Source: Sideroxydans lithotrophicus (lineage in GTDB: Bacteria; Pseudomonadota; Gammaproteobacteria; Burkholderiales; Gallionellaceae). Taken from it: a stretch of DNA of 64,000 nucleotides. This document shows positions 31,511-61,049 of the stretch, piece by piece. The notes beneath the pieces were generated by a model, which had not been told where the DNA came from, did not search any database, and was given only the letters and a program-made list of their open reading frames with translations. The stretch is taken from the NCBI GenBank assembly GCA_020723185.1, contig DYJI01000002.1, positions 186,001-250,000 of the forward strand. Reading direction: 5' to 3'. The translations under genes were made by a program, and so were the position numbers. Each line of letters opens with the position of its first letter. Position 1 is the first letter of the stretch.

Positions 31511-32476
31511 CTAGACCGAATACGGTGCCGCAGCCCAGCCCTGCACCAATGCCGCTTCGGTGTCCGGCAGGTAGCTGAAGCCGGATTCCAGATCGCGCAC
31601 CACGGCGTAGGCGACGGCGGGCGGGGTGATGGTGTTGGAGACGAGGTGGAAATACCAGGCGGAGGGATAGCCGGCCACGCGGTCGAAGGCTTGCAACTGG
31701 TGCGACATCTCGACGCCGGAGAGTTCGGCGTTCCAGTGGAACGACTTGAGTTCGCGCGCGTGGCGCGACACCAGCGAGGCAGACACCACGGGATTACGAT
31801 AGCGGTCCAGATGTTCGCGCAGGCCGACCACCCAGTGGTCGCTGAAGTGGCCGCGCGTGGCGGCGCTGCTGTGCGACCATTCCTTGAGCAGGCGCGGCAG
31901 GCCGTTGTCGCGCCCGGTCGCCAGGCCCACGCGCGCCACGGTCTGCTTCATGTCGAGCAGACGGCGGAACTTGTAACGCGGCGAACCCACGGCATGCCCT
32001 TCGAGCAGCAGCGGCGAGATGGGGTCGATGAGCTCCTGCATGTCTTCGGGCAGGGCATCGGGATCGATCAGTTCGCGGTCCAGCACTTCCTGCAGTTCTT
32101 CCACTTCCAGTTGCATGAAGTCGGCGGGGGCCGGGCCGTAGGCGCAGACGAAATAATGGGTGCGGCCGGAATGGCGGGTGACTTGCAGGCCTTTATCGAG
32201 ATGGCGCTCGACCAGTTCGCCCATGTCGCCGTCGCAGGCTTCCAGCTCGCTGCGCGCCCAGCGTTCCAGTTCGTCCGAGAGACGGTCGCCGTTCGGCGCG
32301 ATGACGCCGCCGGGGCGATACCAGCCGCCACGGTTCAGCGCGTACTCAAAGGTGCAGCCGGGATGGATGCGGTTGGCGATCTCCATCAGTCCGGCGTGAT
32401 GCGGGCGCGGCGACAACGCTTCGATCTTGCGCGCAAGTTCCTGCAGCGCTGTTTCGTCGGGCGTCATGATCGTCAT
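31511..32476 (-). CDS. Unknown protein coupled to the LRV iron-sulfur protein
   Basis: This 321-aa cytosolic protein starts MTIMTPDETALQELARKI. Helix-rich sequence is interrupted by segments such as RGGWYRPGGVIAPNGDRL and DLESGFSYLPDTEAALVQGW. No catalytic family is recognised. Its start overlaps the stop of the [4Fe-4S] LRV protein by four bases and it is under the same sigma54 promoter, so it belongs to the nif regulon. Companion genes of this kind beside lrv genes have no assigned function that I know of. Confidence 0.78.
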   Translation of the reverse strand: MTIMTPDETALQELARKIEALSPRPHHAGLMEIANRIHPGCTFEYALNRGGWYRPGGVIAPNGDRLSDELERWARSELEACDGDMGELVERHLDKGLQVTRHSGRTHYFVCAYGPAPADFMQLEVEELQEVLDRELIDPDALPEDMQELIDPISPLLLEGHAVGSPRYKFRRLLDMKQTVARVGLATGRDNGLPRLLKEWSHSSAATRGHFSDHWVVGLREHLDRYRNPVVSASLVSRHARELKSFHWNAELSGVEMSHQLQAFDRVAGYPSAWYFHLVSNTITPPAVAYAVVRDLESGFSYLPDTEAALVQGWAAAPYSV

Positions 32477-33234
32477 TTCTCTTCTCCCATCAGGTATTCG
32501 TTCAATCGCTGGCGCACCACGGCGCGCACGTCAGGCTCGGCATCGTCCACTAGTTCGGCGATAGACTCAAGCGGCGCATGCTCCGCCGCGCGCAGCCGCA
32601 CCACCCAATCCTCATCGTGCAGCATCTTCACGGCATCGTCCGGCAACACGCGCTCGGCCACGATGCGCCGCACTTCCACGTCCTCGTCCTGCGCCATGCG
32701 CGCCAGCGCGAACGGCGGCAGACGGCGCGCCACCACCTTGCGCACCTCGCGTTCCTCGTCGTGCGCCATCTTTGGCAATTGGCCGTGCGGCAGGCGCTTC
32801 GCCACCTGCATGCGCACCAGATAGTCCTCATCGTTCTGCAACACGCCCAGTTTCTCCGGCGCCAGACGGTCCGCCGCGGTCATGCGTACCTCGCGGTCGG
32901 TGTCGTGCAGATAGTCGTCCAGCTCGTCGATGGGCAGGCGCATCACCATCACGCGCCGCACCACCTCATCCTCGTCGCGCGGCAGCGTACGCAAGGCCGC
33001 CAGCGGCGCATGCTGCGCGGCGATGGCGCGCCGTTCCCAGAAGGCATCGTGCAGATAGCCTTCGGCGAATTCCTTGTTGCGGCGCAGAAAGCGGTCGATC
33101 TGCCGTCCGCTGTGCGCGGTCACGCAGATGTCGCCCGGCACACAGCGGCCTTCCGCCAGCAGCGCGCGGTGCGGACACGTCGCACAATCCGCAAGGGCGA
33201 CCGGCGGCGATGCCTCCGAATGACGTTCCGGCAT
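32473..33234 (-). CDS. [4Fe-4S] leucine-rich-repeat-variant (LRV) protein
   Basis: This 253-aa protein has an N-terminal cluster site (C17-x2-C20-x10-C31-x5-C37) and a right-handed superhelix of LRV repeats from about residue 75, seen as recurring units such as MAHDEEREVRKVVARRLPPF. The Azotobacter vinelandii LRV protein has the same design and is linked to nif genes; its role is unresolved. The ATG at 33234 has AGGGA upstream. A sigma54 promoter (33275-33289) and NifA site (33363-33378) precede it. Confidence 0.92.
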   Translation of the reverse strand: MPERHSEASPPVALADCATCPHRALLAEGRCVPGDICVTAHSGRQIDRFLRRNKEFAEGYLHDAFWERRAIAAQHAPLAALRTLPRDEDEVVRRVMVMRLPIDELDDYLHDTDREVRMTAADRLAPEKLGVLQNDEDYLVRMQVAKRLPHGQLPKMAHDEEREVRKVVARRLPPFALARMAQDEDVEVRRIVAERVLPDDAVKMLHDEDWVVRLRAAEHAPLESIAELVDDAEPDVRAVVRQRLNEYLMGEEK

Positions 33235-33274: not shown

Positions 33275-33289
33275 GCAACACCCGTGCCA
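33275..33289 (-). promoter_or_regulatory. Sigma54 promoter of the LRV operon
   Basis: The minus strand reads TGGCAC-GGGTG-TTGC, a perfect match to the -24/-12 consensus. The LRV ATG is about 41 bases downstream of the GC element. Confidence 0.85.
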
Positions 33290-43965: not shown

Positions 43966-44190
43966 TCATTCCGCCGCATCGAGGCGCTTGGCGCGCACCG
44001 AGTAAGGCAGCCGCGCGGGTGCAGTTTGCGGCTCGATGTAATACGTTCCACCGTTGTTCAGCTTGATCTCCCCGCCCCACTTCTCCGGGGTGTCGAACTC
44101 CATCGAAACGATGGTGTCCTCGAGATCGCGCTTGGGCAGGTAGAACTGATAGCTGCCTTTGCTATCACGTCGGATCATGATGTTTGCCAT
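43966..44190 (-). CDS. nifT: Nitrogen fixation protein NifT
   Basis: This 74-aa protein starts MANIMIRRDSKGSYQFYLPK. The central KWGGEIKLNNGGTYYIEP segment is the NifT/FixU signature. AAGGAAG precedes the ATG at 44190; a start ten codons upstream is less likely. It lies 77 bases behind nifK, the gap holding a 12-bp hairpin. NifT is generally non-essential and its function is unknown. Confidence 0.95.
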   Translation of the reverse strand: MANIMIRRDSKGSYQFYLPKRDLEDTIVSMEFDTPEKWGGEIKLNNGGTYYIEPQTAPARLPYSVRAKRLDAAE

Positions 44191-44267: not shown

Positions 44268-45836
44268 TTACCGTACTAAGTCGTGGTTGTAGTCGGTGGT
44301 ACCCATACCGCGAGTCTCCTCGTCCAGGCGCTCCATCACTGCGTTGACCAGGGTCGTCAGGATCTGCATGGCGCCCTCGTAACCCAGCGTGGTGGAACGA
44401 TGCAGGTGGTGACGGTCGAAGATCGGGAAGCCGATGCGGATCAGCGGAACTTCGAACTCCTTGCCCTTGTGCAGCGTGTCGCGCTGGATGAACTTGGCGT
44501 AGGAGTTGCCGATCATGAAGTCCGGCTTCTCGGTCAGCACCAGCGAACGGAAGTGCCACAGGTCGGCACCCGCGAACAACTGGGTGTTCTTGCCGTAGGG
44601 GGACTCGTCCAGCATCTTCTGCATGGCCTTCTGCCACTTCTTGCTGCCGTTGTTGCACAGCACGTGCAGCGGCTCGACGCCCAGCTCCAGCAGGAACTTG
44701 GTCATGCCGTAGGTGAAGTCCGGATCGCCGTACAGGCTGATCTTCTTGGCGTGCAGCCAGGTATGGCTGTCCATCATCATGTCGACCAGACGGCCGCGCT
44801 CTTTCGCCAGCGAATCGGGGATGGCCTTGCCGGTGACTTCCGCGACTTTCATCAGGAACTCGTCGGTGGACTCCAGACCCATCGGGATGGTCATCTTCGG
44901 CACTTCGTGCTTCCAGGTCGTCTCGACATACTTCTTGGTCTTTTCCAGTTGCATGGGCTGCAGCAGGAAAGTGGTCTTGGCGTTCGGTGCATCCTTCACT
45001 TCGTCCAGCTTGGTGCCGCCCGCGTACATGCGGAACTCGCCGTCAGCCGGTGTATCCAGCACTTCGGTCGGATCGCTCAGCAGGGTGTGCGCAACGCCCA
45101 TCTCGTCCAGCATGCGATGGATCACGCGGTAGTTGCCCAGGTAGGTCTCGAAGCCGGGAACGATGTTGATCTTGCCGTTCTTGCCGACATCCTTGTCGTC
45201 CATGGTGTTCAGCGTGAAGTAACGCATGATGCCTTCGAACATGTTGTCCCAGCCGGTCACGTGCGAACCCACGAAGGACGGGGTGTGCGCGTAAGGTGTG
45301 GGGAACTCCATGGGCACGCCGCCGGCCTTCTTGGTGTTGGTGATGAAGGCGTTCAGGTCGTCGCCGATCACCTCTGCCATGCAGGTGGTGGAGACGGCGA
45401 TCATCTCCGGCTTGTACATCGCCTTGGCGTTCTCGAGACCGTCGATCATGTTCTTCTGACCGCCGAACACGGCTGCGTCTTCAGTCATGGAGTCGGACAC
45501 GCAGGACACGGGCTCGCGGAAGTGACGGTTGAAGTAGGTACGGAAGTACGCCACGCAACCTTGCGAACCGTGCACATACGGCAGGGTCTTTTCGAAACCC
45601 AGTGCGCACAGCACGGCACCGAGCGGTTGGCAGGCCTTGGCCGGGTTCACGGTCAGGGCTTCGCGCTGGAAGTTCAGTTCACGATATTCCATCGTGGTGG
45701 TCCAGTTGAAGATCTCCTGGACCTTGTCTGCGGCGTGGCCTTCTTCGAAGTTCGCCTTCTTGTTTGCCAGCGATTCCTTGTATTCGTCCTGACGGAACAG
45801 TGGATAGCAAGGCTTGATGTCATCGACTTTTTGCAT
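44268..45836 (-). CDS. nifK: Nitrogenase MoFe protein beta subunit
   Basis: This 522-aa subunit is complete. P-cluster ligands are C69 (NPAKACQPLG), C94 (HGSQGCVAYF) and C152 (VSTTCMAEVIGDD), with the nearby serine ligand in TPSFVGS at 187. Length fits group I nitrogenases with an extended N terminus. It forms the alpha2-beta2 MoFe protein with NifD. It is separated from nifD by 82 bases with a hairpin. No damage is visible. Confidence 0.98.
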   Translation of the reverse strand: MQKVDDIKPCYPLFRQDEYKESLANKKANFEEGHAADKVQEIFNWTTTMEYRELNFQREALTVNPAKACQPLGAVLCALGFEKTLPYVHGSQGCVAYFRTYFNRHFREPVSCVSDSMTEDAAVFGGQKNMIDGLENAKAMYKPEMIAVSTTCMAEVIGDDLNAFITNTKKAGGVPMEFPTPYAHTPSFVGSHVTGWDNMFEGIMRYFTLNTMDDKDVGKNGKINIVPGFETYLGNYRVIHRMLDEMGVAHTLLSDPTEVLDTPADGEFRMYAGGTKLDEVKDAPNAKTTFLLQPMQLEKTKKYVETTWKHEVPKMTIPMGLESTDEFLMKVAEVTGKAIPDSLAKERGRLVDMMMDSHTWLHAKKISLYGDPDFTYGMTKFLLELGVEPLHVLCNNGSKKWQKAMQKMLDESPYGKNTQLFAGADLWHFRSLVLTEKPDFMIGNSYAKFIQRDTLHKGKEFEVPLIRIGFPIFDRHHLHRSTTLGYEGAMQILTTLVNAVMERLDEETRGMGTTDYNHDLVR

Positions 45837-45918: not shown

Positions 45919-47367
45919 TTACGCGGCCTTTTTCCAGGGCGGAGTCAGTTGGCTCCAGCACGGATTGTTCAAGGTCATGTCCATGTCACGGGCGAAGATG
46001 GCGAAGCCGTCGTAGCTGTGATACGGACCGGAGTAGTCCCACGAGTGCATCTGGCGGAAGGGGATGCCCATCTTCTGGAAGATGAACTTTTCCTTGATGC
46101 CGGAACCGACCAGGTCGGGCTTGACGCGTTTGACGAACTCTTCGAATTCGAGGCCGGTCACGTCGTCGTACAGCAGCGTGGCGTTACCCATTTCCTTGAT
46201 GGTGCGGTCGTAGTCGTCGTTGTGCGCGAACTCGTAACCGGTACCGACCACTTCCATGCCCAGGTCTTCATAGGCACCGATCACGTGACGCGGACGCAGA
46301 CCACCCACGTACAGCATGACGCGCTTGCCTTGCAGACGCGGTTTGTACTTGTCGATCACGGCTTGCATCATCGGCTTGTACTTGGCGATCACTGCCTCAG
46401 CCTTGGCCTTGATGGTGTCGTCGAAGAAGGAAGCGATCTCGCGGATGGAGGCTTCGATCTTGGTCGGGCCGAAGAAGTTGTATTCCATGTAAGGGATGCC
46501 GTACTTCTCTTCCATGTGGCGGCTGATGTAGTTCATCGAGCGGTAGCAGTGCAGCAGGTTCAGCTTGGCCTTGGGAGTATTCTCCATCTCAGCCAATGTA
46601 CCGTCGCCGGACCACTGGGCGATCACGCGCAGCCCCATGTCTTCCAGGATGGTACGGGTCGCCCATGCGTCGCCGCCGATGTTGTAGTCGCCGATGATGG
46701 TCACGTCGTAAGGCGTGGATTCGAACTTGCTCTCGTCACGGTTGCCCAACACCCAGTCACGGATCGCGTCGTTGGCGATGTGGTGACCCAGCGATTGCGA
46801 CACGCCACGGAAACCTTCGCAGCGCACCGGGATGACCGGCTTGTTGATCTCTTTGGCGGACTTCTTGGAGACGGCTTCGATGTCGTCACCGATCAGACCG
46901 ATCGGGCACTCGGACTGGACCGAGATACCTTTGTGCAGCGGGAACAGGCCTTCGATCTCGGTGATCAGCTTGGCGAGTTTCTTGTCGCCGCCGAACACGA
47001 TGTCCTTCTCCTGGAAATCGGAAGTGAAGTTCATGGTGCCGAAGGCGTTCACGCCGGTGGTACCGACGTAGTAGTTACGGCGACCGGCGCGGGAATACTG
47101 ACCGCAGCCGACTGGGCCGTGGGAAATATGGATCATGTCCTTGATCGGGCCCCACACCACACCTTTGGAACCGGCGTAGGCGCAACCGCGGATGGTCATC
47201 ACACCCGGCAAGGATTTGCGGTTGGAAGTGATGCACTTCTTGGACTGTTCGATGGATTGATCGTTGACCGCCAGGTGCTTGGCGCGATCTTTCTTTGCTT
47301 TCTCTGGATAGACCTCGAGCACCTCCTGGATGAGGGCTTCCGTCTCTTCTCTGGTCATTGCTGTCAT
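45919..47367 (-). CDS. nifD: Nitrogenase MoFe protein alpha subunit
   Basis: This 482-aa subunit is complete. P-cluster ligands are at C62, C88 and C154, the same numbers as in Azotobacter. FeMo-cofactor ligands are C274 (LLHCYRSM) and H441 ([10 protein letters not shown]). Active-site R96, Q191 and H195 ([11 protein letters not shown]) are all present, so it is a molybdenum enzyme and predicted functional. The ATG at 47367 follows AAGGAG. It is 84 bases behind nifH. Confidence 0.98.
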
Positions 47368-47451: not shown

Positions 47452-48351
<900 letters not shown>

Positions 48352-48437: not shown

Positions 48438-49328
48438 ATGAAACATAATTCCACTCACGCGCAACCCCACAAAGGGGATGGGGAACACAACAAGGAAGCC
48501 CGCTTTGTAGGAGTAGCTACAAGCCTGCCGCGCTACGCACGTCTGCCCATCAACCGCTGCAACCTGCCCGCCGACATCCTCGGCGGCCTCACCTTCCAGC
48601 GCGCCCCCGTGCCGCTCGAACTCGACGGCGTCGCACAGTTCCACCACGGCTTGTTCGAGCTGCTGGACAAGATCGACGACGCACACGAACGCGCGCGCGC
48701 ATTCAGCATCCACATGAATGCCTCCTTCTATCTGGACCAACCGGAACAAGCGGGCTACACGGAAAACACCCTGCACAAACGACTCAAGGCCGACTACCTG
48801 CGCATGATGCGCGGCTGGAGTTTCGATTCGGACGGCGCGGAAGGCGCGGCATTGAAAGGCTGGGTGGAATCAAGGTTCGGATTGTTGCCCAGGCACCACG
48901 GCGGACAGATCAGGGACTTCTCCGGCGAGGCGTACAGGAGATATCTGGAGATGCGCGCCACCGCCCTGTATGGCACCAACGCACTGGAAGCACAGTTCGA
49001 CCTGCTTTACACCTACTGCCAATACGAACTCGGCAGACAACATCCCGGCGAGTCGCACCTCACGCTGTATCGCGGCGTGAACCGCATGGACGAACACGAG
49101 ACCCTCTCCACACTGGAGAACAAGAATCGCATCGTCCTGCTCAACAACCTCAACTCCTTCACCTCCAACCGCGAACGCGCCGACGAATTCGGCGACTACC
49201 TGCTCACCGCACAGGTGCCGCTGGCCAAAGTGTTCTGCTATTCAAGATTGCTACCGGGAATGTTGCAGGGGGAGGACGAGTACACGGTGCTGGGCGGGGT
49301 GTACGAGGTGGGGATGGCGGCGTATTAA
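48438..49328 (+). CDS. draT: NAD+-dinitrogenase-reductase ADP-ribosyltransferase
   Basis: This ~296-aa enzyme is expected to ADP-ribosylate NifH Arg101 and switch nitrogenase off after ammonium or darkness/energy shift. The family block ARLPINRCNLPADILGGLTF, the NAD-binding LTLYRGVNRM and the SFTSNRERADEFGDYL motif are intact. The ATG at 48438 is the first plausible start; a start further in, nearer the conserved block, cannot be excluded. It is divergent from nifH. No draG (the removing hydrolase) is found in this window. Confidence 0.92.
   Translation: MKHNSTHAQPHKGDGEHNKEARFVGVATSLPRYARLPINRCNLPADILGGLTFQRAPVPLELDGVAQFHHGLFELLDKIDDAHERARAFSIHMNASFYLDQPEQAGYTENTLHKRLKADYLRMMRGWSFDSDGAEGAALKGWVESRFGLLPRHHGGQIRDFSGEAYRRYLEMRATALYGTNALEAQFDLLYTYCQYELGRQHPGESHLTLYRGVNRMDEHETLSTLENKNRIVLLNNLNSFTSNRERADEFGDYLLTAQVPLAKVFCYSRLLPGMLQGEDEYTVLGGVYEVGMAAY
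48506..48521. promoter_or_regulatory. NifA upstream activator site for nifH
   Basis: TGT-AGGAGTAGCT-ACA fits TGT-N10-ACA. It lies ~98 bases upstream of the nifH -24 element, inside the first codons of draT as annotated. Confidence 0.75.
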
Positions 49329-50232: not shown

Positions 50233-50850
50233 ATGAAGTTCTACATGACACCCGGCTCGTGTTCGACCGGCATCCATATCCTGCTCGAAGAGCTGGAGCT
50301 GGTGTTCGAGGTGTATCTGGTCAACCTGATGGCGGGCGACCATCTGCGGCCGGAGAATCTTGCGGTGAATCCCAAGGCGACCATCCCAACGCTGGTGCGC
50401 GACGATGGTTCGGTCATCACCGAGTTCCAGGCCATCGCCTGGTGGCTGGCGCGCACTTACCCCAAAGCGAAGTTATTGCCGAACGATGTGGAGGGCGAGG
50501 TGCGCGTTATCGAGACACTGGATTACGTGGTGGGCACGATCCACGGTTCCGGATACACACGCATCTTCACCACCGACAACTACTCATCGAATGTAGCCGA
50601 ACACGCTGCGATCCAGGCACGCGGGCGGGAGATCGTGAGCAAGGGTTTTGCGCTGATGAACGGAGTTCTGGCTGGCAAAGACTATGTGGTCGGCAGTTTC
50701 AGCATCGCGGATGCGGCTTTGTTCTATGTGGAATTCTGGGCGGACAAGATCAAGCTGGAATTGCCACCGAATTGTCTCGCGCATTACCAGCGCATGTTGC
50801 AGCGCCCAGCGGTGCGGCGCGTGTTGATGGAGGAAGGGTACCGGGTATGA
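50233..50850 (+). CDS. Glutathione S-transferase-like protein, nif-linked
   Basis: This 205-aa protein has the GST N-terminal thioredoxin fold (MKFYMTPGSCSTGIHILLEE, with the SCST motif at the active-site position and NPKATIPTLVRDDG) and a C-terminal helical domain with NGVLAGKDYVVGSFSIADAA. Its stop overlaps the start of an iron-sulfur protein gene, so the two work together. GST-like genes occur in other nif clusters, but their role is unclear; redox or thiol chemistry is a fair inference. Confidence 0.88.
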   Translation: MKFYMTPGSCSTGIHILLEELELVFEVYLVNLMAGDHLRPENLAVNPKATIPTLVRDDGSVITEFQAIAWWLARTYPKAKLLPNDVEGEVRVIETLDYVVGTIHGSGYTRIFTTDNYSSNVAEHAAIQARGREIVSKGFALMNGVLAGKDYVVGSFSIADAALFYVEFWADKIKLELPPNCLAHYQRMLQRPAVRRVLMEEGYRV

Positions 50851-52235
50851 GCGAAAAACCGGCACAGCTACAGACCAAGCTCGATTGGTCGGCCTACGAG
50901 AGCTACGGCAGTTTCGGAAGTTTTGATTTCGGTGGTTTCGGCGAGAGCGAGGCAGCGCCCGCAGCAGGCGGCGGTTATGCCAAGGCGGCGGCAGTGTGCA
51001 TGGGCAAACGTCATTGTCAGAAGAAAGACAAGGGCGTGATGTGTCCCAGCTTCCGCGCCACCGATGACGAGAAGCATTCCACGCATCACCGCGCGGTCAC
51101 ACTCAAGGCTGCGCTCGACGGCGAATTGGGCGCGCATCCATTCCTGAGCAAAGAACTGACCGAGGCGATGGAGTATTGCGTGAGTTGCAAAGGCTGCAAG
51201 AGCGAGTGTCCGCACGGTGTGGATATGGCGCTGCTGCGCGTCGAGGCACTGGCGCAGCGCTGGCAGCGACTCGGCCATGTGCCCTTGCGCGAGCGCTTGT
51301 TCGCGTTCACGCCGCGCTATGCGAAGCATCTTAAACATCTCAACTGGGTGGGCGCGTTGCGCGCACGCCTCCCCTTGCTGTCGAAGGCGATGCAGCGCTG
51401 GCTGGGCATCGCAGAGAAACGCTCGCTGCCCAAGGCGGCCGCGCGCGATTTCATCTCCTCGCAACCCCAATCGGTCACGGTGAGCGAAGGCAAGCCCGAG
51501 GTCGTGCTGCTGGTGGATACCTTCTCCAACCATCTCGATCCGCAGATCGCCCAAGCGGCACTGGAGGTGTTGCAAAGCGCGGGCTACACGGTGCACATCG
51601 CGCAACCCGCGACAGGTGAACGCGCGCTGTGTTGCGGCCGCACTTTTCATTCCAATGGATTGATAGACGAAGCGCGCGCCGAAGCGACGCGCTTGCTGGA
51701 TGTGCTCTCGCCGTTCGCCGAGCGCGGCCTGCCCATCATCGGTCTGGAGCCATCCTGCCTGCTGATGTTGCGCGACGAATATCACTCGCTGGGACTGGGC
51801 GAGCGAGTGGGCAAGGTCGCCAACGCGGCCGTGTTGTTGGAAGAGTTCCTCGCGCGCGAACTCGATGCGAAGCGACTGCAGCTCGACTTCCAGCCCTTGC
51901 TCGGAAAAGTGCTGGTGCACGGCCACTGCCACCAGAAGGCATTCGGAGTGATGCCCGCCGTGGCGAAGGTGTTGGCGCTGGTGCCGGACTTGCAGGCGGA
52001 GTTCATCGAATCGAGTTGCTGCGGCATGGCAGGTTCGTTCGGCATGGAAGCGGAACACTACGAGGTATCGATGCAGATGGGTGAGCTTTCGTTACTGCCA
52101 ACGGTGCGCGCCGCCGAGGCGGACACACTGCTGATCGCCAACGGCACCAGCTGTCGCCACCAGATCCGCGATGGCGCAATGCGCGAATCGCTGCATATCG
52201 CGCAAGTGCTACAGCGCGCAATCCTTCCACAATAA
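50847..52235 (+). CDS. Iron-sulfur oxidoreductase resembling the C-terminal half of YdiJ/GlcF-type proteins
   Basis: This 462-aa protein has an N-terminal Ser/Phe/Gly-rich segment, then CMGKRHCQKKDKGVMCPSF and CVSCKGCKSECPHGVD, two cluster motifs (about residues 51-69 and 111-125). Two CCG-type cysteine domains follow: ERALCCGRTFHSNG and HGHCHQKAF with SSCCGMAGSFG. This order matches the C-terminal part of FAD/Fe-S fusion dehydrogenases, but the FAD domain is absent. The partner for substrate oxidation may be elsewhere, or the protein may act as an electron wire with the coupled GST. Confidence 0.87.
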   Translation: MSEKPAQLQTKLDWSAYESYGSFGSFDFGGFGESEAAPAAGGGYAKAAAVCMGKRHCQKKDKGVMCPSFRATDDEKHSTHHRAVTLKAALDGELGAHPFLSKELTEAMEYCVSCKGCKSECPHGVDMALLRVEALAQRWQRLGHVPLRERLFAFTPRYAKHLKHLNWVGALRARLPLLSKAMQRWLGIAEKRSLPKAAARDFISSQPQSVTVSEGKPEVVLLVDTFSNHLDPQIAQAALEVLQSAGYTVHIAQPATGERALCCGRTFHSNGLIDEARAEATRLLDVLSPFAERGLPIIGLEPSCLLMLRDEYHSLGLGERVGKVANAAVLLEEFLARELDAKRLQLDFQPLLGKVLVHGHCHQKAFGVMPAVAKVLALVPDLQAEFIESSCCGMAGSFGMEAEHYEVSMQMGELSLLPTVRAAEADTLLIANGTSCRHQIRDGAMRESLHIAQVLQRAILPQ

Positions 52236-53267: not shown

Positions 53268-53294
53268 CCCGACAACGGCTCGGCCTTTGTCGGG
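53268..53294 (+). terminator. Hairpin terminator after the AraC-type gene
   Basis: CCCGACAA and TTGTCGGG form an 8-bp stem with an 11-base loop, followed by TTTGCT. The structure is moderately strong. It separates the AraC gene from the SIR2 operon. Confidence 0.6.
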
Positions 53295-53303
53295 TTTGCT
53301 ACC
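53288..53303. promoter_or_regulatory. Near-match NifA site upstream of the SIR2 operon
   Basis: TGT-CGGGTTTGCT-ACC differs from TGT-N10-ACA in the last base. It is 46 bases upstream of the -24 element and overlaps the terminator stem, so it is a weak candidate. Confidence 0.35.
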
Positions 53304-53348: not shown

Positions 53349-53363
53349 TGGCGTGATTATTGC
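53349..53363 (+). promoter_or_regulatory. Sigma54 promoter of the SIR2-hemerythrin-nifZ-SagB operon
   Basis: TGGCGT-GATTA-TTGC fits TGGCRY-N5-TTGC. Transcription would begin near 53375, 27 bases before the SIR2 ATG. This ties the operon to RpoN control. Confidence 0.75.
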
Positions 53364-53401
53364 GAATGGTATGGCATCCCTACTGACAGGAGTCATGACC
53401 C

Positions 53402-54259
53402 ATGAGCAAAGCATTCGACGACATCTTATCCGGCCTGCGCGATGGCAGCGTTGTCCCCTACCTCGGCCCCGGCGCGCTGAGCGGCGTGACCGATGCCAAT
53501 GGCAAGGCGATCCCCGCTGACAGCGACAGCCTGATCCTGGCGATGAACAACGGCCAGCCGATGGCACCGAAGCTGATGTACGAATTCCCGCGCGCGGCGA
53601 TGAACATCGAATTGAAGCGCGGCCGCAAGGCAGTGAACAATTTCCTCGACGCGACCTATAAAGACACCAAGTGGAGCACATCCCCCTTGCACGCCTGGCT
53701 GGGAGAGCAAAAGCTTCCCTACATGATCGATGCCAATCGTGACACACAGATGCAACAGCAATATGCCGGCACGCCGCACACGCTGGTGGTGGGCATCGCG
53801 CGCATGTCGGGCACGGCGTTCCGCTTCAAGCTCTACCACTACGACGGCACCAGCTACACCTCCGTCGAGCAGGAAGCCGTCGACAGCAGTCTGCCCATTC
53901 TGTTCAAACCGCTGGGCACGCCGACACCGGAATCGAACTACATCGCATCGGACGCCGACTTCGTCGACTACATCACCGAACTGATGGGCGGCTTCGCCAT
54001 CCCGTCCTTCATCAAGCGCTCGCGCCAGAACAAGCGCTACGTGACGCTGGGCCTGCGCCTGAACCGCGACACCGACCGCATGGTGTTCTCCGACATCATC
54101 TTCGGCGCGGACAAGCCCGCAGGATGGGCGCTGATCCCGCATCCGACCGACAAGGAGAAGCGTTACCTCGACCGCCTCAACATCGAGATCGTCAACGCCG
54201 ATGTGGTCGACCTGCTCGCCGCCGCGCAAGGGGTGAGTACCGCGCTGGAAGCTGCATGA
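53402..54259 (+). CDS. SIR2-like NAD-linked protein in a nif-type operon
   Basis: This 285-aa cytosolic protein starts MSKAFDDILSGLRDGSVVPY. The N-terminal VVPYLGPGALSGV resembles the first nucleotide-binding loop of SIR2-like proteins, and a similar N-terminal theme is seen in SIR2 genes linked to nif clusters. The C-terminal half (TLGLRLNRDTDRMVFSDIIF and LIPHPTDKEKRYLDRL) has no clear family. Catalytic deacetylation is not certain, because the usual SIR2 His could not be identified. It may hydrolyse NAD or sense it. GGAG lies nine bases before the ATG. It is the first gene of its operon. Confidence 0.75.
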   Translation: MSKAFDDILSGLRDGSVVPYLGPGALSGVTDANGKAIPADSDSLILAMNNGQPMAPKLMYEFPRAAMNIELKRGRKAVNNFLDATYKDTKWSTSPLHAWLGEQKLPYMIDANRDTQMQQQYAGTPHTLVVGIARMSGTAFRFKLYHYDGTSYTSVEQEAVDSSLPILFKPLGTPTPESNYIASDADFVDYITELMGGFAIPSFIKRSRQNKRYVTLGLRLNRDTDRMVFSDIIFGADKPAGWALIPHPTDKEKRYLDRLNIEIVNADVVDLLAAAQGVSTALEAA

Positions 54260-54660
54260 CGCATCCAGCCGCATGGGACGACGCACGCCATGCGATAGGG
54301 ATGGCGGAGTTCGACGACACGCACCGCGAGTTCATCGCACAGGTGGCCGCGCTCAACGCCGCCGGCCCTGCCGAGTTCCCCGCGCTGTTCCAGTCGCTGG
54401 TCGCACATACCCGTGAACATTTCATCGCAGAGGGTAAACTGATGCGCGAATCGAAATATCGCGGCCTGCCGGAACACGAGGGCGAGCATCACCGCGTGCT
54501 GGGCGAGATGCAACAGCTCAACCGCAGCCTCAAGCGCGGTCACCTGCCTCTGGTGCGTGCCTATGTGAAGGAAGGCCTGATGGACTGGTTCGACACGCAC
54601 GTCGCCATGATGGATGCAGCACTGGCGATGCACCTGAAGAAACAGAAGGAGACGGTATGA
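54256..54660 (+). CDS. Bacteriohemerythrin
   Basis: This 134-aa single-domain hemerythrin keeps all di-iron ligands: H23, H55 and E59 (HFIAE), H74 and H78 (HEGEH), H115 and D120 (HVAMMD). It should bind O2 reversibly or sense it. It overlaps the SIR2-like gene by four bases and the NifZ-like gene by four bases. In a nitrogen-fixation operon it is a good candidate for O2 buffering near oxygen-labile nitrogenase, by inference. Confidence 0.93.
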   Translation: MTHPAAWDDARHAIGMAEFDDTHREFIAQVAALNAAGPAEFPALFQSLVAHTREHFIAEGKLMRESKYRGLPEHEGEHHRVLGEMQQLNRSLKRGHLPLVRAYVKEGLMDWFDTHVAMMDAALAMHLKKQKETV

Positions 54661-54926
54661 GCATGTACAACATGGGCGACATGGTGTTCGCCGCATACGA
54701 CCTTTTCAATGAGCCGATGGAAGAGACCGGCGAGAGCGGCATCCCCGATGTGGCGGTGGGCGCACTGCTGGCCGCGGCCGGTACGCGCGGCGTGGTGGTC
54801 AATGTCGGCCATGCCAAGGAACTGCCGGACGAGGCCATCTATCTGGTGCGTTTCGAGATCGACGCCGAAGGAACGCTGGGCGAACCCATCGGCTGTCTGA
54901 CTGACGAATTGAGCGGGCTGAACTGA
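54657..54926 (+). CDS. nifZ: NifZ-family protein
   Basis: This 89-aa protein has the NifZ core: MYNMGDMVFAAYDLFNEP, then LLAAAGTRGVVVNVGHAKEL and EAIYLVRFEIDAEGTLGEP. Known NifZ helps mature the second P-cluster pair in NifDK. It overlaps the hemerythrin gene by four bases and is two bases from SagB. It is encoded away from the main nifHDK operon. Confidence 0.85.
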   Translation: MSMYNMGDMVFAAYDLFNEPMEETGESGIPDVAVGALLAAAGTRGVVVNVGHAKELPDEAIYLVRFEIDAEGTLGEPIGCLTDELSGLN

Positions 54927-54928
54927 GG

Positions 54929-56461
54929 ATGTCCGACCCGCGCGCTGCGCGTGTGATGGCTTATCACGCGCGCAGCAAACACGCACTGGACCGCTACGCC
55001 GCCGGACCGGGCACACTGGACTGGGAGGCACAACCGGCCGCGTTCCGCGACTGGACGGGCTGCACGCAGACGGCCTTGCCGCGTGAAATACTGGTGAGCG
55101 ACATCGCGTGGGGAGAGATCGCAGCGGCGCGTGAACCTTTGCCGTTCGATGCCCGCTCGCTGGGTTCCTTCTTGCGCCTCTCGCTCGGCCTCACCGCATG
55201 GAAGGAATACGCCGGTTCGCGCTGGTCGCTGCGCGCGCATCCTTCCTCCGGCAACCTGCATCCCACCGAAAGCTGGCTGATCACCTCGCAAGTACCGGGC
55301 ATCGCGGACGGGCTGCACCACTATCAGAACCTGTATCACGCGCTCGAACACCGCGCCTGGAACGACGGAACATCCGCACCCGGCGTATGGCTGGGTTTCA
55401 GTTCCATCCACTGGCGCGAAGCGTGGAAATACGGCGAGCGCGCCTTCCGTTATTGCCAGCTCGACATGGGTCATGTGCTGGCCGCGGTGAGCTATGCGGC
55501 AGCACTGCACGGCTGGCAACCGCGCTTGTTGCGCCTAGACTCCAACAAGGTCGCGCAGGCGCTTGGCGTGGATCGCAGCGAGGATTTCAGCGGCGTGGAA
55601 ACGGAAGAGGCGGAAGTGATCGTGGCGCTGCACGCGGATGCAAACCCGCCCGACACGACATGGCAACACTACGCGGGCACACCCAGCCTGCTCGATCCGC
55701 GTCCGCTGTACCAATGGCCGGTGATCGAGGAGGTCGCTGCCGCCACGCGCGGCGCACTGCCCGCGACAGCATCTGCCGCGCAGGCGATCGCCACGCACAC
55801 CGATGCATCCGACATACGCGCCGCACAAGTGATATTGAAGCGCCGCAGTGCACAAGCCTTCGACGGCGTATCGGTGATACCGCACTCCTTGTTCAAACGC
55901 ATGCTGAGTTCACTTCTGGCAGGCGGTTCACCGGTGTGGCAACTGTGGCCGCACACGCCGCGCGTGCATCCGGTGTTGCTGGTGCACCGCGTGGAAGGCG
56001 TCGCACCCGGCCTGTATGTGTTGCCGCGCGCCGATGTCGTTGAATCACTGGGGTCAGCCCTGCGCGACAGCTTCTCCTGGCAGGTCGCCGATGACACCCT
56101 GCCGCTTTATCGCCTGGTCACCGCCCAGGCGGGAAAGACCGCACGTACCCTGTCCTGCCATCAGGATATCGCCGCACATTGCGCAGTCACATTCATGATG
56201 CTGGCCGAGTTCGAAGCACCCATCGCCCACGATGCCGCCGCCTACCGCCACCTGCACTGGGAAGCGGGCATGCTGGGCCACATCCTCACGCTGGAGGCCG
56301 AAGCCGCCGGTTGGCGCGGTACCGGCATCGGCTGCTTCTTCGACGATGCCGATCACGAGGTGCTGGGCCTCAAGGATGCGCAATTTCAGGTGATCTACCA
56401 CTATGCCATCGGCATGGCGCTGGACGATGCGCGCATATCCACCCTGCCTGCCTACGCATAA
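54929..56461 (+). CDS. SagB/ThcOx-type nitroreductase with two domains
   Basis: This 510-aa protein has two FMN-binding nitroreductase-like halves. The first half contains LRAHPSSGNLHPTESWLITS (about residues 100-119) and the second carries LKRRSAQAFDGVSV and MLGHILTLEAEAAGWRGTGI. SagB/ThcOx proteins are flavin dehydrogenases, often acting on azolines in peptides, but stand-alone members exist. No modified peptide gene or cyclodehydratase is found here, so the substrate is unknown. It is two bases after nifZ. The start is well supported by AGG and operon spacing. Confidence 0.85.
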   Translation: MSDPRAARVMAYHARSKHALDRYAAGPGTLDWEAQPAAFRDWTGCTQTALPREILVSDIAWGEIAAAREPLPFDARSLGSFLRLSLGLTAWKEYAGSRWSLRAHPSSGNLHPTESWLITSQVPGIADGLHHYQNLYHALEHRAWNDGTSAPGVWLGFSSIHWREAWKYGERAFRYCQLDMGHVLAAVSYAAALHGWQPRLLRLDSNKVAQALGVDRSEDFSGVETEEAEVIVALHADANPPDTTWQHYAGTPSLLDPRPLYQWPVIEEVAAATRGALPATASAAQAIATHTDASDIRAAQVILKRRSAQAFDGVSVIPHSLFKRMLSSLLAGGSPVWQLWPHTPRVHPVLLVHRVEGVAPGLYVLPRADVVESLGSALRDSFSWQVADDTLPLYRLVTAQAGKTARTLSCHQDIAAHCAVTFMMLAEFEAPIAHDAAAYRHLHWEAGMLGHILTLEAEAAGWRGTGIGCFFDDADHEVLGLKDAQFQVIYHYAIGMALDDARISTLPAYA

Positions 56462-56584
56462 GACAACGCAAGTGACTTGTGCAGAATCATCCATCAAAAT
56501 GAACTCTTTTCCCATCCTGAACTCTGAGCGGCCTGCGCGCGGAAACATCCGCGCTTTGGCAACCCATCCCGGAAAGGAACACGC

Positions 56585-57055
56585 ATGAACGACAATCAAC
56601 TCCGCTGCTGGCTGGCGCAGGCCAGATTCCATGTCAGCGACCCGGTGGAGACCGACATCAACCGCCCACTGGCGAACAGCACCACACCGTTGATGTATGC
56701 CGCACAGACCGGCGATCTGGACGTGGTCCGGTCGCTACTCAAGCGTGGTGCCGACCCGGCGCTGCTGAACAACGACGGCAACGGAGCATTGTGGTTCGCC
56801 TGTTATTCCAACAGCGCGGCATGCGTTGCCGAACTCATCAAGGCCGGTGCGCCGCTGGACACGCAGAACGTGAACGGCGCGACCGCGCTGATCTACTGCG
56901 CCTCGGCAGGCAAGGCGCCCTTGGTGGAACTGTTGCTGGAAGCGGGGGCGAACACCGAGCTGATGACGCATGACGATTTCACCGCGCTGGAGCTGGCAGC
57001 CGACCTGCAGTGTTTGCGCCTGCTCAAGGATGCTCGCAAGACCGTCTGTGCCTGA
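56585..57055 (+). CDS. Ankyrin repeat protein downstream of SagB
   Basis: This 156-aa protein has three to four ankyrin repeats, seen in STTPLMYAAQTGDLDVVRSL (about residues 34-53), LLKRGADPALLNNDGNGALW and GATALIYCASAGKAPLVELL. AAGGAA lies before the ATG. It is 123 bases behind the SagB gene, so it may be in the same transcript or have its own promoter. Ankyrin genes occur in some nif clusters; the partner is unknown. A ~320-base gap follows. Confidence 0.87.
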   Translation: MNDNQLRCWLAQARFHVSDPVETDINRPLANSTTPLMYAAQTGDLDVVRSLLKRGADPALLNNDGNGALWFACYSNSAACVAELIKAGAPLDTQNVNGATALIYCASAGKAPLVELLLEAGANTELMTHDDFTALELAADLQCLRLLKDARKTVCA

Positions 57056-57280: not shown

Positions 57281-57317
57281 AAGGCCACAGACTTCCCTCT
57301 GTGGCCTTTTTGTTTTT
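57281..57317 (+). terminator. Strong Rho-independent terminator
   Basis: AAGGCCACAGA and TCTGTGGCCTT form an 11-bp perfect stem with a six-base loop, followed by TTTGTTTTT. It ends the ankyrin/SagB transcript or, if an attenuator, controls the EamA gene 58 bases downstream. Confidence 0.9.

Positions 57318-59614: not shown

Positions 59615-61049
<1,435 letters not shown>

Follow-up and report, generated by a model that had tools for sequence, protein, structure and literature searches.

Organization of the operon

The 64,000-nucleotide stretch of Sideroxydans lithotrophicus contig DYJI01000002.1 analyzed here (the window) carries a five-gene operon headed by a SIR2-like gene, 5 kb from the nitrogenase genes nifHDK of this Gallionellaceae-type genome. 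According to the open reading frame list of the window, all five genes lie on the forward strand and span 53402-57055. The first two gene junctions are ATGA overlaps, the third gap measures 2 bases and the ankyrin gene follows after a gap of 123 bases in which no sigma-70-like site was found. An earlier sequence-only reading had described four overlapping or nearly touching genes behind a -24/-12 promoter, with an ankyrin gene 123 bases on, and the gene arrangement and promoter position agree with that description. The operon is probably co-transcribed. Genes 2-5 could be assigned to the hemerythrin, NifZ, nitroreductase and ankyrin families based on profile matches that were over cut-off or clear. 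The features of the locus are as follows.

53268..53294, strand not assigned: inverted repeat CCCGACA..TGTCGGG, lying ahead of the RpoN promoter
53288..53303, + strand: degenerate NifA-site-like TGT-N10-ACC, 5/6 bases, 61 bases upstream of the -24 element
53349..53363, + strand: -24/-12 (RpoN) promoter TGGCGTGATTATTGC, TGGCGT-N5-TTGC
53402..54259, + strand: SIR2-like gene, putative pnfA family, 285 aa, 31.4 kDa, sirtuin catalytic His position occupied by Leu
54256..54660, + strand: single-domain bacteriohemerythrin gene, seven diiron ligand positions intact
54657..54926, + strand: gene for a small NifZ-domain protein (domain over cut-off), the second, divergent NifZ of the genome
54929..56461, + strand: gene for a tandem-domain SagB-type nitroreductase, 510 aa, nitroreductase and SagB domains over cut-off
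56585..57055, + strand: ankyrin-repeat protein gene, clear ankyrin match
57281..57308, + strand: intrinsic-terminator-like stem and T-run behind the operon; stems in this region are not above shuffles in frequency (2 found, 2.8 expected)

The lead gene and the published record of pnfA

Position, size, promoter type and annotation point to pnfA (PST1325) of Pseudomonas stutzeri A1501 as the presumed ortholog of the lead gene. Both genes are divergent from nifHDK and have a NifA/RpoN-type promoter, and the A1501 protein, later annotated as a SIR2 family protein (PMC11332353), has a mass of 31.7 kDa compared with 31.4 kDa for the window protein. This likeness is one of position and description. 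Unlike in A1501, the window gene is separated from nifH by draT, GST, FeS and AraC genes and is followed by a hemerythrin and a second module.

The 2010 report on A1501 describes pnfA as divergent from nifHDK and NifA-sigma54 dependent, and states that pnfA-like proteins were reported solely from diazotrophs (PMC2820453). According to the same source, a non-polar pnfA mutant retained 23% of nitrogenase activity and was complemented by the gene, its impairment was seen microaerobically and not under plain anaerobic conditions, and nifH transcription was unchanged (PMC2820453). Its authors pointed to a resemblance to UspA or ETF-alpha, reported a 72% homolog in Azotobacter vinelandii and named homologs in Azoarcus and Dechloromonas (PMC2820453); relatives of the window protein in the latter two genera were found here at 59% (L137) and 61% (L152) identity, respectively. 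The sequence-only reading had seen no known role for the SIR2-like protein in nitrogen fixation. This needs to be revised, as the gene appears to be pnfA, for which a nitrogenase phenotype is published. Part of the system is thus already on record: the gene itself (by position and description), how it is regulated and its oxygen-dependent phenotype have been published, while the SIR2 fold without a catalytic His, the genome-scale distribution and the hemerythrin partner are new here.

PnfA is confined to nif genomes in the sample

The distribution of PnfA was analyzed in a class-wide sample of 232 genomes with a completeness of at least 95%. nifD was counted as present in 26 of them (25 matches over cut-off and one genome with nifD split in two); five genomes whose nifD match was weak (E 1e-5 to 1e-12) went into the non-nif group. 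PnfA was found in 22 genomes, all of them among the 26 with nifD, and in 0 of the 206 others (Fisher 4e-27, uncorrected for relatedness). The proposed link to nitrogen fixation is supported, with nifD in 22 of 22 carriers. A set of 100 relatives gave a similar picture: 36 genomes carry PnfA, and each of them belongs to the 41 in which the nifD model has a match. Twenty-nine of these 36 have nifD over cut-off and seven have only a fragment or a match in the nifE range, one of which is weak (G021).

Scanning genome contigs yielded at least 521 confirmed relatives, of which the best 80 were retained. nifH, D, K, E or N is visible in 38 of these 80 loci, many of which end at contig ends, and pnfA is linked to and divergent from nifHDK in the window and in many other loci. 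It should be noted that 7 of 81 loci yielded no SIR2 frame and that some GC-rich loci were mis-called (e.g. L069, L074, L162, L164 and L169), so that counts of genes in the same run are lower bounds.

More distant SIR2 proteins are also found in nif clusters. Among 72,556 plasmid records, 68 matches were identified (Rhizobium 51, Mesorhizobium 7, Sinorhizobium 7, and one each in Methylococcus, Paraburkholderia and Bradyrhizobium), and the four that were opened all lie in nif clusters. SIR2 proteins of R. etli p42d and of a Mesorhizobium plasmid belong to the same fold family and are 24% identical to the window protein. Published accounts mention a nif-cluster SIR2 protein in Rhodovulum (PMC9412634), ZMO1821 as a SIR2 family protein of the nif island of Zymomonas mobilis (PMC8594446, PMC8600466), msi351 of M. 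loti behind a NifA/RpoN-type promoter (PMC3538637) and the R. capsulatus SIR2 family protein Rcc03262, listed as not found in the proteome of a nifA mutant (PMC6925177). The last three are likened to PnfA by description only. Unlike the lead gene of the window operon, the rhizobial and R. capsulatus SIR2 genes sit with nifZ and nifT. No match to the window's hemerythrin was labelled beside the distant SIR2 genes and no hemerythrin was annotated beside them at the plasmid loci opened. The Paraburkholderia plasmid has a gene for a truncated hemoglobin next to nifH, close to the distant SIR2-like gene.

PnfA as a putative pseudo-sirtuin

The window PnfA matches Pfam SIR2_2 weakly (E 0.002, below the curated cut-off), and 54 of the 56 members of the PnfA alignment match it at E <=0.01, the best at 1.7e-10. 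Profile-profile alignment (hhalign) with 18 SIR2_2 proteins from elsewhere, i.e. 30 loci minus nine nif-linked and three weak ones, gave a probability of 98 (E 4e-13), and the AlphaFold2 model based on the 56 sequences has a mean pLDDT of 94. Among solved structures, a mixed profile matched the SIR2-domain NADases KomC (E 4e-6) and ThsA (E 7e-4), which have the SIR2 fold, and DSR2 at E 0.6 only; the profile of the pnfA group alone found no Protein Data Bank chain at E 1. By these profile comparisons, PnfA is a member of the SIR2 fold family.

Catalysis by sirtuins and SIR2 NADases relies on a His and an Asn. hhalign places the histidine of the SIR2_2 HG motif on Leu171 of PnfA, aligning HG with LG and TTNYD with ANRD; some of the 18 SIR2_2 pieces were shortened in extraction, with HG visible in 14 and TTNxD in 8. 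Across the 56 sequences, position 171 is Met in 32, Leu in 20, His in 1 and another residue in 3, and the serine position of GAGxS is Leu in 55. Asn112, the Asn of TTNxD, is invariant in 56 of 56, and this position is Trp in 11 distant nif-cluster sequences (11 of 18 in the mixed set). Lys169 and Gly217 are invariant as well. H146N and H171A mutants are named among the SIR2-type structure matches, where H146 is the catalytic His of KomC. KomC keeps this residue, whereas the PnfA family does not. As judged from the alignments, PnfA is without the sirtuin catalytic base while the pocket region is still strongly conserved.

Two relatives do have His at the mostly Leu/Met catalytic position, L161 (on a Mesorhizobium plasmid) and L140, with the motifs APHG and KPHG. 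In addition, the last residue of 18 of the 80 PnfA proteins is a cysteine, often in the form -VGC or -IGC after a variable linker (L097, L102, L106, L111, L117, L124, L126, L127, L129, L133, L136, L138 and six others). This tail is perhaps used for tethering or metal binding.

Conserved regulatory sites upstream of pnfA

The pattern TGGCRY-N5-TTGC occurs 6 times in the window compared with 1.37 expected, and another of the 6 matches precedes nifH. With a criterion of at least 8 of 10 bases with GG and GC fixed, and mononucleotide shuffles as the null, 54 of 78 loci, the window included, have a -24/-12 site in the 300 bases that precede the SIR2-like gene, compared with 3.8 expected. Such conservation supports the RpoN control that the sequence-only reading had proposed. 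An exact TGT-N10-ACA lies upstream of the SIR2-like gene in 43 of 78 loci (4.1 expected from mononucleotide shuffles). Exact NifA sites are mostly absent in the close loci; in each of the 16 close loci inspected (L086 and L094 not included), a NifA-like site of at least 5/6 bases precedes the promoter by 59-61 bases. The inverted repeat of the window belongs to an element seen in 11 of 79 loci examined, the window included. Related loci carry TGCGACA..TGTCGCA at about the same distance, so the arms vary (CCC..GGG versus TGC..GCA) with complementarity kept. Conservation of regulatory sites upstream of pnfA may reflect common descent.

A bacteriohemerythrin as a probable partner of PnfA

In 34 of 74 loci the hemerythrin gene is the next gene after pnfA, and 37 of the 74 have it within the pnfA run. 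It follows pnfA in 27 of 28 close-relative loci, L020 being the exception. H23, H55, E59, H74, H78, H115 and D120, which we take to be the seven diiron ligand positions of hemerythrin, are identical in 37 of 37 hemerythrins. The window protein is over the cut-off of the bacteriohemerythrin domain TIGR02481 and has all seven positions; what sets it apart is its place in a nif operon. Pairwise identities of PnfA and hemerythrin correlate (Spearman 0.71, uncorrected for shared ancestry). In the literature search, no paper was found tying hemerythrin to pnfA. The genome of Sideroxydans ES-1 is described as having three nif clusters and 14 hemerythrin genes, which the seen part of that paper does not connect to each other (PMC3770913). 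The connection to oxygen made in the sequence-only reading is upheld by the intact ligand positions and by the published phenotype of pnfA.

The NifZ-SagB-ankyrin module

The three remaining genes form a second module. The operon NifZ is over its domain cut-off (45.5 bits versus 27). It was rejected as the main NifZ of the genome, as a better one is encoded at C2:280007-280219 (103 bits versus 44 for the operon copy). The SagB domain of the nitroreductase scores 86.3 bits in two stretches, with a cut-off of 78.4, and the protein shares its tandem-domain architecture with SagB-type dehydrogenases (TIGR03605) and with the tandem nitroreductase 3eo7 (E 8e-24 to the latter). Among the ten proteins classified, there were no cyclodehydratase, precursor peptide or azoline-peptide genes, for which no dedicated search was made. 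A lost 105-aa gene behind the ankyrin gene was considered and dropped, since only a 13-residue match was found (E 0.057).

Among 30 SagB loci examined, NifZ, SagB and ankyrin occur together in 23 and SagB and ankyrin in 26. In L075 and L077 the module follows nifE-nifN-nifX genes; no -24/-12 site of at least 8/10 lies within 400 bases upstream of the module's NifZ in L075, and one 8/10 site is found at -194 from it in L077. In L167, a nitrogenase-associated protein of TIGR01616 (9341-9736), presumably NifO-like, is encoded directly before SagB-ankyrin, divergent from nifHDK. SagB was found in 31 of the 100 relatives, 28 of them with a nifD-model match. Class-wide, strong SagB matches occur in 33 of 232 genomes, namely 17 of 26 with nifD and 16 of 206 without (Fisher 7e-11; eight genomes with weak matches, E 3e-8 to 5e-4, not counted). 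SagB is thus enriched in nif genomes and not exclusive to them. No paper on a SagB-type enzyme with ankyrin and nif was found in the literature search. The SagB-type enzyme is best regarded as a neighbour of uncertain role, and any function assigned to the second module would be conjectural.

nif context and other features of the window

The window also holds nifE, nifN, a gene for a NifX-associated protein and a nif ferredoxin gene, as well as Rnf cluster-like genes at 60-64 kb (named by eye). The nifHDK-nifT genes and draT are located as follows.

43966-44190, - strand: nifT, after nifK
44268-45836, - strand: nifK, after nifD
45919-47367, - strand: nifD, after nifH
47452..48324, - strand: nifH
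48438..49328, + strand: draT, divergent from nifH

The GST gene and a GlpC-like FeS protein gene at 50233-52235 lie between draT and pnfA. GST and FeS genes are again found near pnfA in L079, L080 and L083, the FeS gene alone in L084, and in L134 an FeS gene lies directly 3' of pnfA. A 185-aa protein without Pfam or NCBIfam match is encoded at 60492-61049 (- strand), and its relatives sit in the pnfA run of L111, L146 and L152. A further good -24/-12 site, TGGCACGGGTGTTGC at 33275-33289 (- strand), lies ahead of an LRV-repeat gene (32473-33141).

Proposed function and alternatives

Gene order, loss of the catalytic residue, nif-confined distribution in the sample, promoter conservation and hemerythrin ligand positions come directly from this analysis. 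We hypothesize, with about even confidence, that PnfA and hemerythrin form a NifA/RpoN-controlled helper pair for nitrogenase under oxygen in which PnfA is a nucleotide-binding, non-hydrolyzing pseudo-sirtuin. pnfA, an accessory nif gene under NifA/RpoN control, would head a transcription unit shared with the bacteriohemerythrin, behind which a nif-linked NifZ-SagB-ankyrin module appears to have been joined in the closest relatives of the window. Having lost the catalytic His, the SIR2 Rossmann fold may bind NAD(H) or a related nucleotide without hydrolyzing it, and the nucleotide state of PnfA would help nitrogenase, or the delivery of electrons to it, in the presence of oxygen. Hemerythrin would bind oxygen beside PnfA, as a buffer or as an oxygen-sensing partner. 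An NAD-responsive operon, as in the sequence-only reading, is possible. A bolder version, in which the pseudo-enzyme reads NAD(H) or ADP-ribose unconsumed and, with hemerythrin as its oxygen-binding subunit, gates or shields nitrogenase post-translationally, is in our view rather doubtful.

Several observations weigh against the helper-pair hypothesis. In the class-wide sample, 4 of 26 nif genomes are without PnfA. Hemerythrin is missing from the PnfA run in 37 of 74 loci, and in 35 of 80 loci, some of them short, nothing matches the hemerythrin of the window, so the pairing is optional. With 12 hemerythrin-domain matches in the genome, the operon copy need not be special. No exact TGT-N10-ACA NifA site was found near the window promoter, the best being 5/6. 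The A1501 pnfA mutant is reported to have also lost nitrate-supported N2 fixation under anoxia (PMC2820453), which oxygen buffering does not explain, and in the anaerobic test without a pnfA defect wild-type activity was itself low, according to that report (PMC2820453). The M. loti msi351 mutant, from the distant group, is described as fully effective in symbiosis (PMC3538637).

The alternative we take most seriously, while considering it clearly less probable than the helper pair, is that PnfA is a maturation factor acting with NifZ and NifT on the MoFe protein, at the P-cluster or cofactor stage, with a secondary oxygen phenotype. The window operon includes NifZ, and the distant SIR2 genes follow nifB, a ferredoxin gene, nifZ and nifT in the two rhizobial plasmids opened. 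In Methylococcus and Paraburkholderia they are located towards the end of nifB...nifZ-nifZ...nifT clusters. Behind pnfA-hemerythrin in L082 come iscA-, nifU-, nifS- and nifV-like genes and later a NifZ-like gene (by eye), with the same clusters in L088. However, the window's small NifZ lies in the PnfA run of 2 of 74 loci only, a longer NifZ-like gene doing so in 2 others, and the P. stutzeri mutant is reported to be close to wild type under plain anaerobic conditions (PMC2820453). Further, the effective msi351 mutant differs from a nifZ-fixU deletion, reported as Fix- (PMC3538637). It is improbable that PnfA deacetylates Nif proteins as an active sirtuin, an assumption made for ZMO1821, where an upregulated nif-island SIR2 family protein has been linked to Nif protein acetylation (PMC8600466). 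The catalytic positions are missing in the PnfA alignment, with Leu or Met at the His position in 52 of 56, and the distant group differs at the Asn position, ZMO1821 itself not being aligned. Still slightly less probable is a role of PnfA in providing or sensing NAD for the switch that DraT and DraG exert on the Fe protein. The idea is raised because draT often lies just upstream of pnfA: 14 of 74 loci have it upstream within the PnfA run, and in the window it is encoded on the same strand 4 kb before pnfA. However, only 9 of the 22 genomes with PnfA have DraT, as do 3 of the 4 nif genomes that lack PnfA (Fisher 0.31), which weakens DraT as a partner.

That all five genes form one co-adapted system, with the SagB-type enzyme and the ankyrin protein as PnfA partners, is as improbable as the deacetylase. 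The operon is tight in six genomes, whose PnfA is 92-100% identical to that of the window, and in Dechloromonas L152 a single run comprises SIR2, hemerythrin, SagB and ankyrin. However, the five-gene order is kept in just these 6 of 28 close-relative loci; 16 of the other 22 genomes have their SagB match elsewhere and 6 have none. In the class-wide sample SagB also occurs in genomes without nifD, as given above, and 9 of the 26 nifD genomes have no strong SagB match. The presence of two modules in most close relatives disfavors the single undescribed system that had been suggested, and while the five-gene set is indeed largely absent from other nif genomes, the PnfA-hemerythrin pair is not. 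Finally, a SIR2-type anti-phage defence locus lying near nif by chance would fit the NADases KomC and ThsA being among the best mixed-profile matches, and is hardly credible: genes 1-4 have no PADLOC match, gene 5 has ankyrin-type matches only, the distribution of PnfA is nif-confined and the promoters are of nif type.

For pnfA, a strong phenotype has been published since 2010, with no mechanism in the literature found. A sirtuin fold without its catalytic His, nif-confined in the sample and often accompanied by an oxygen-binding protein, leads to testable hypotheses. If the bolder version given above is true, PnfA and hemerythrin would be an oxygen/redox sensor pair distinct from NifL, FixL, DraT and the Shethna protein. 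How micro-oxic diazotrophs keep their oxygen-labile nitrogenase running is also of practical interest for nitrogen-fixation engineering.

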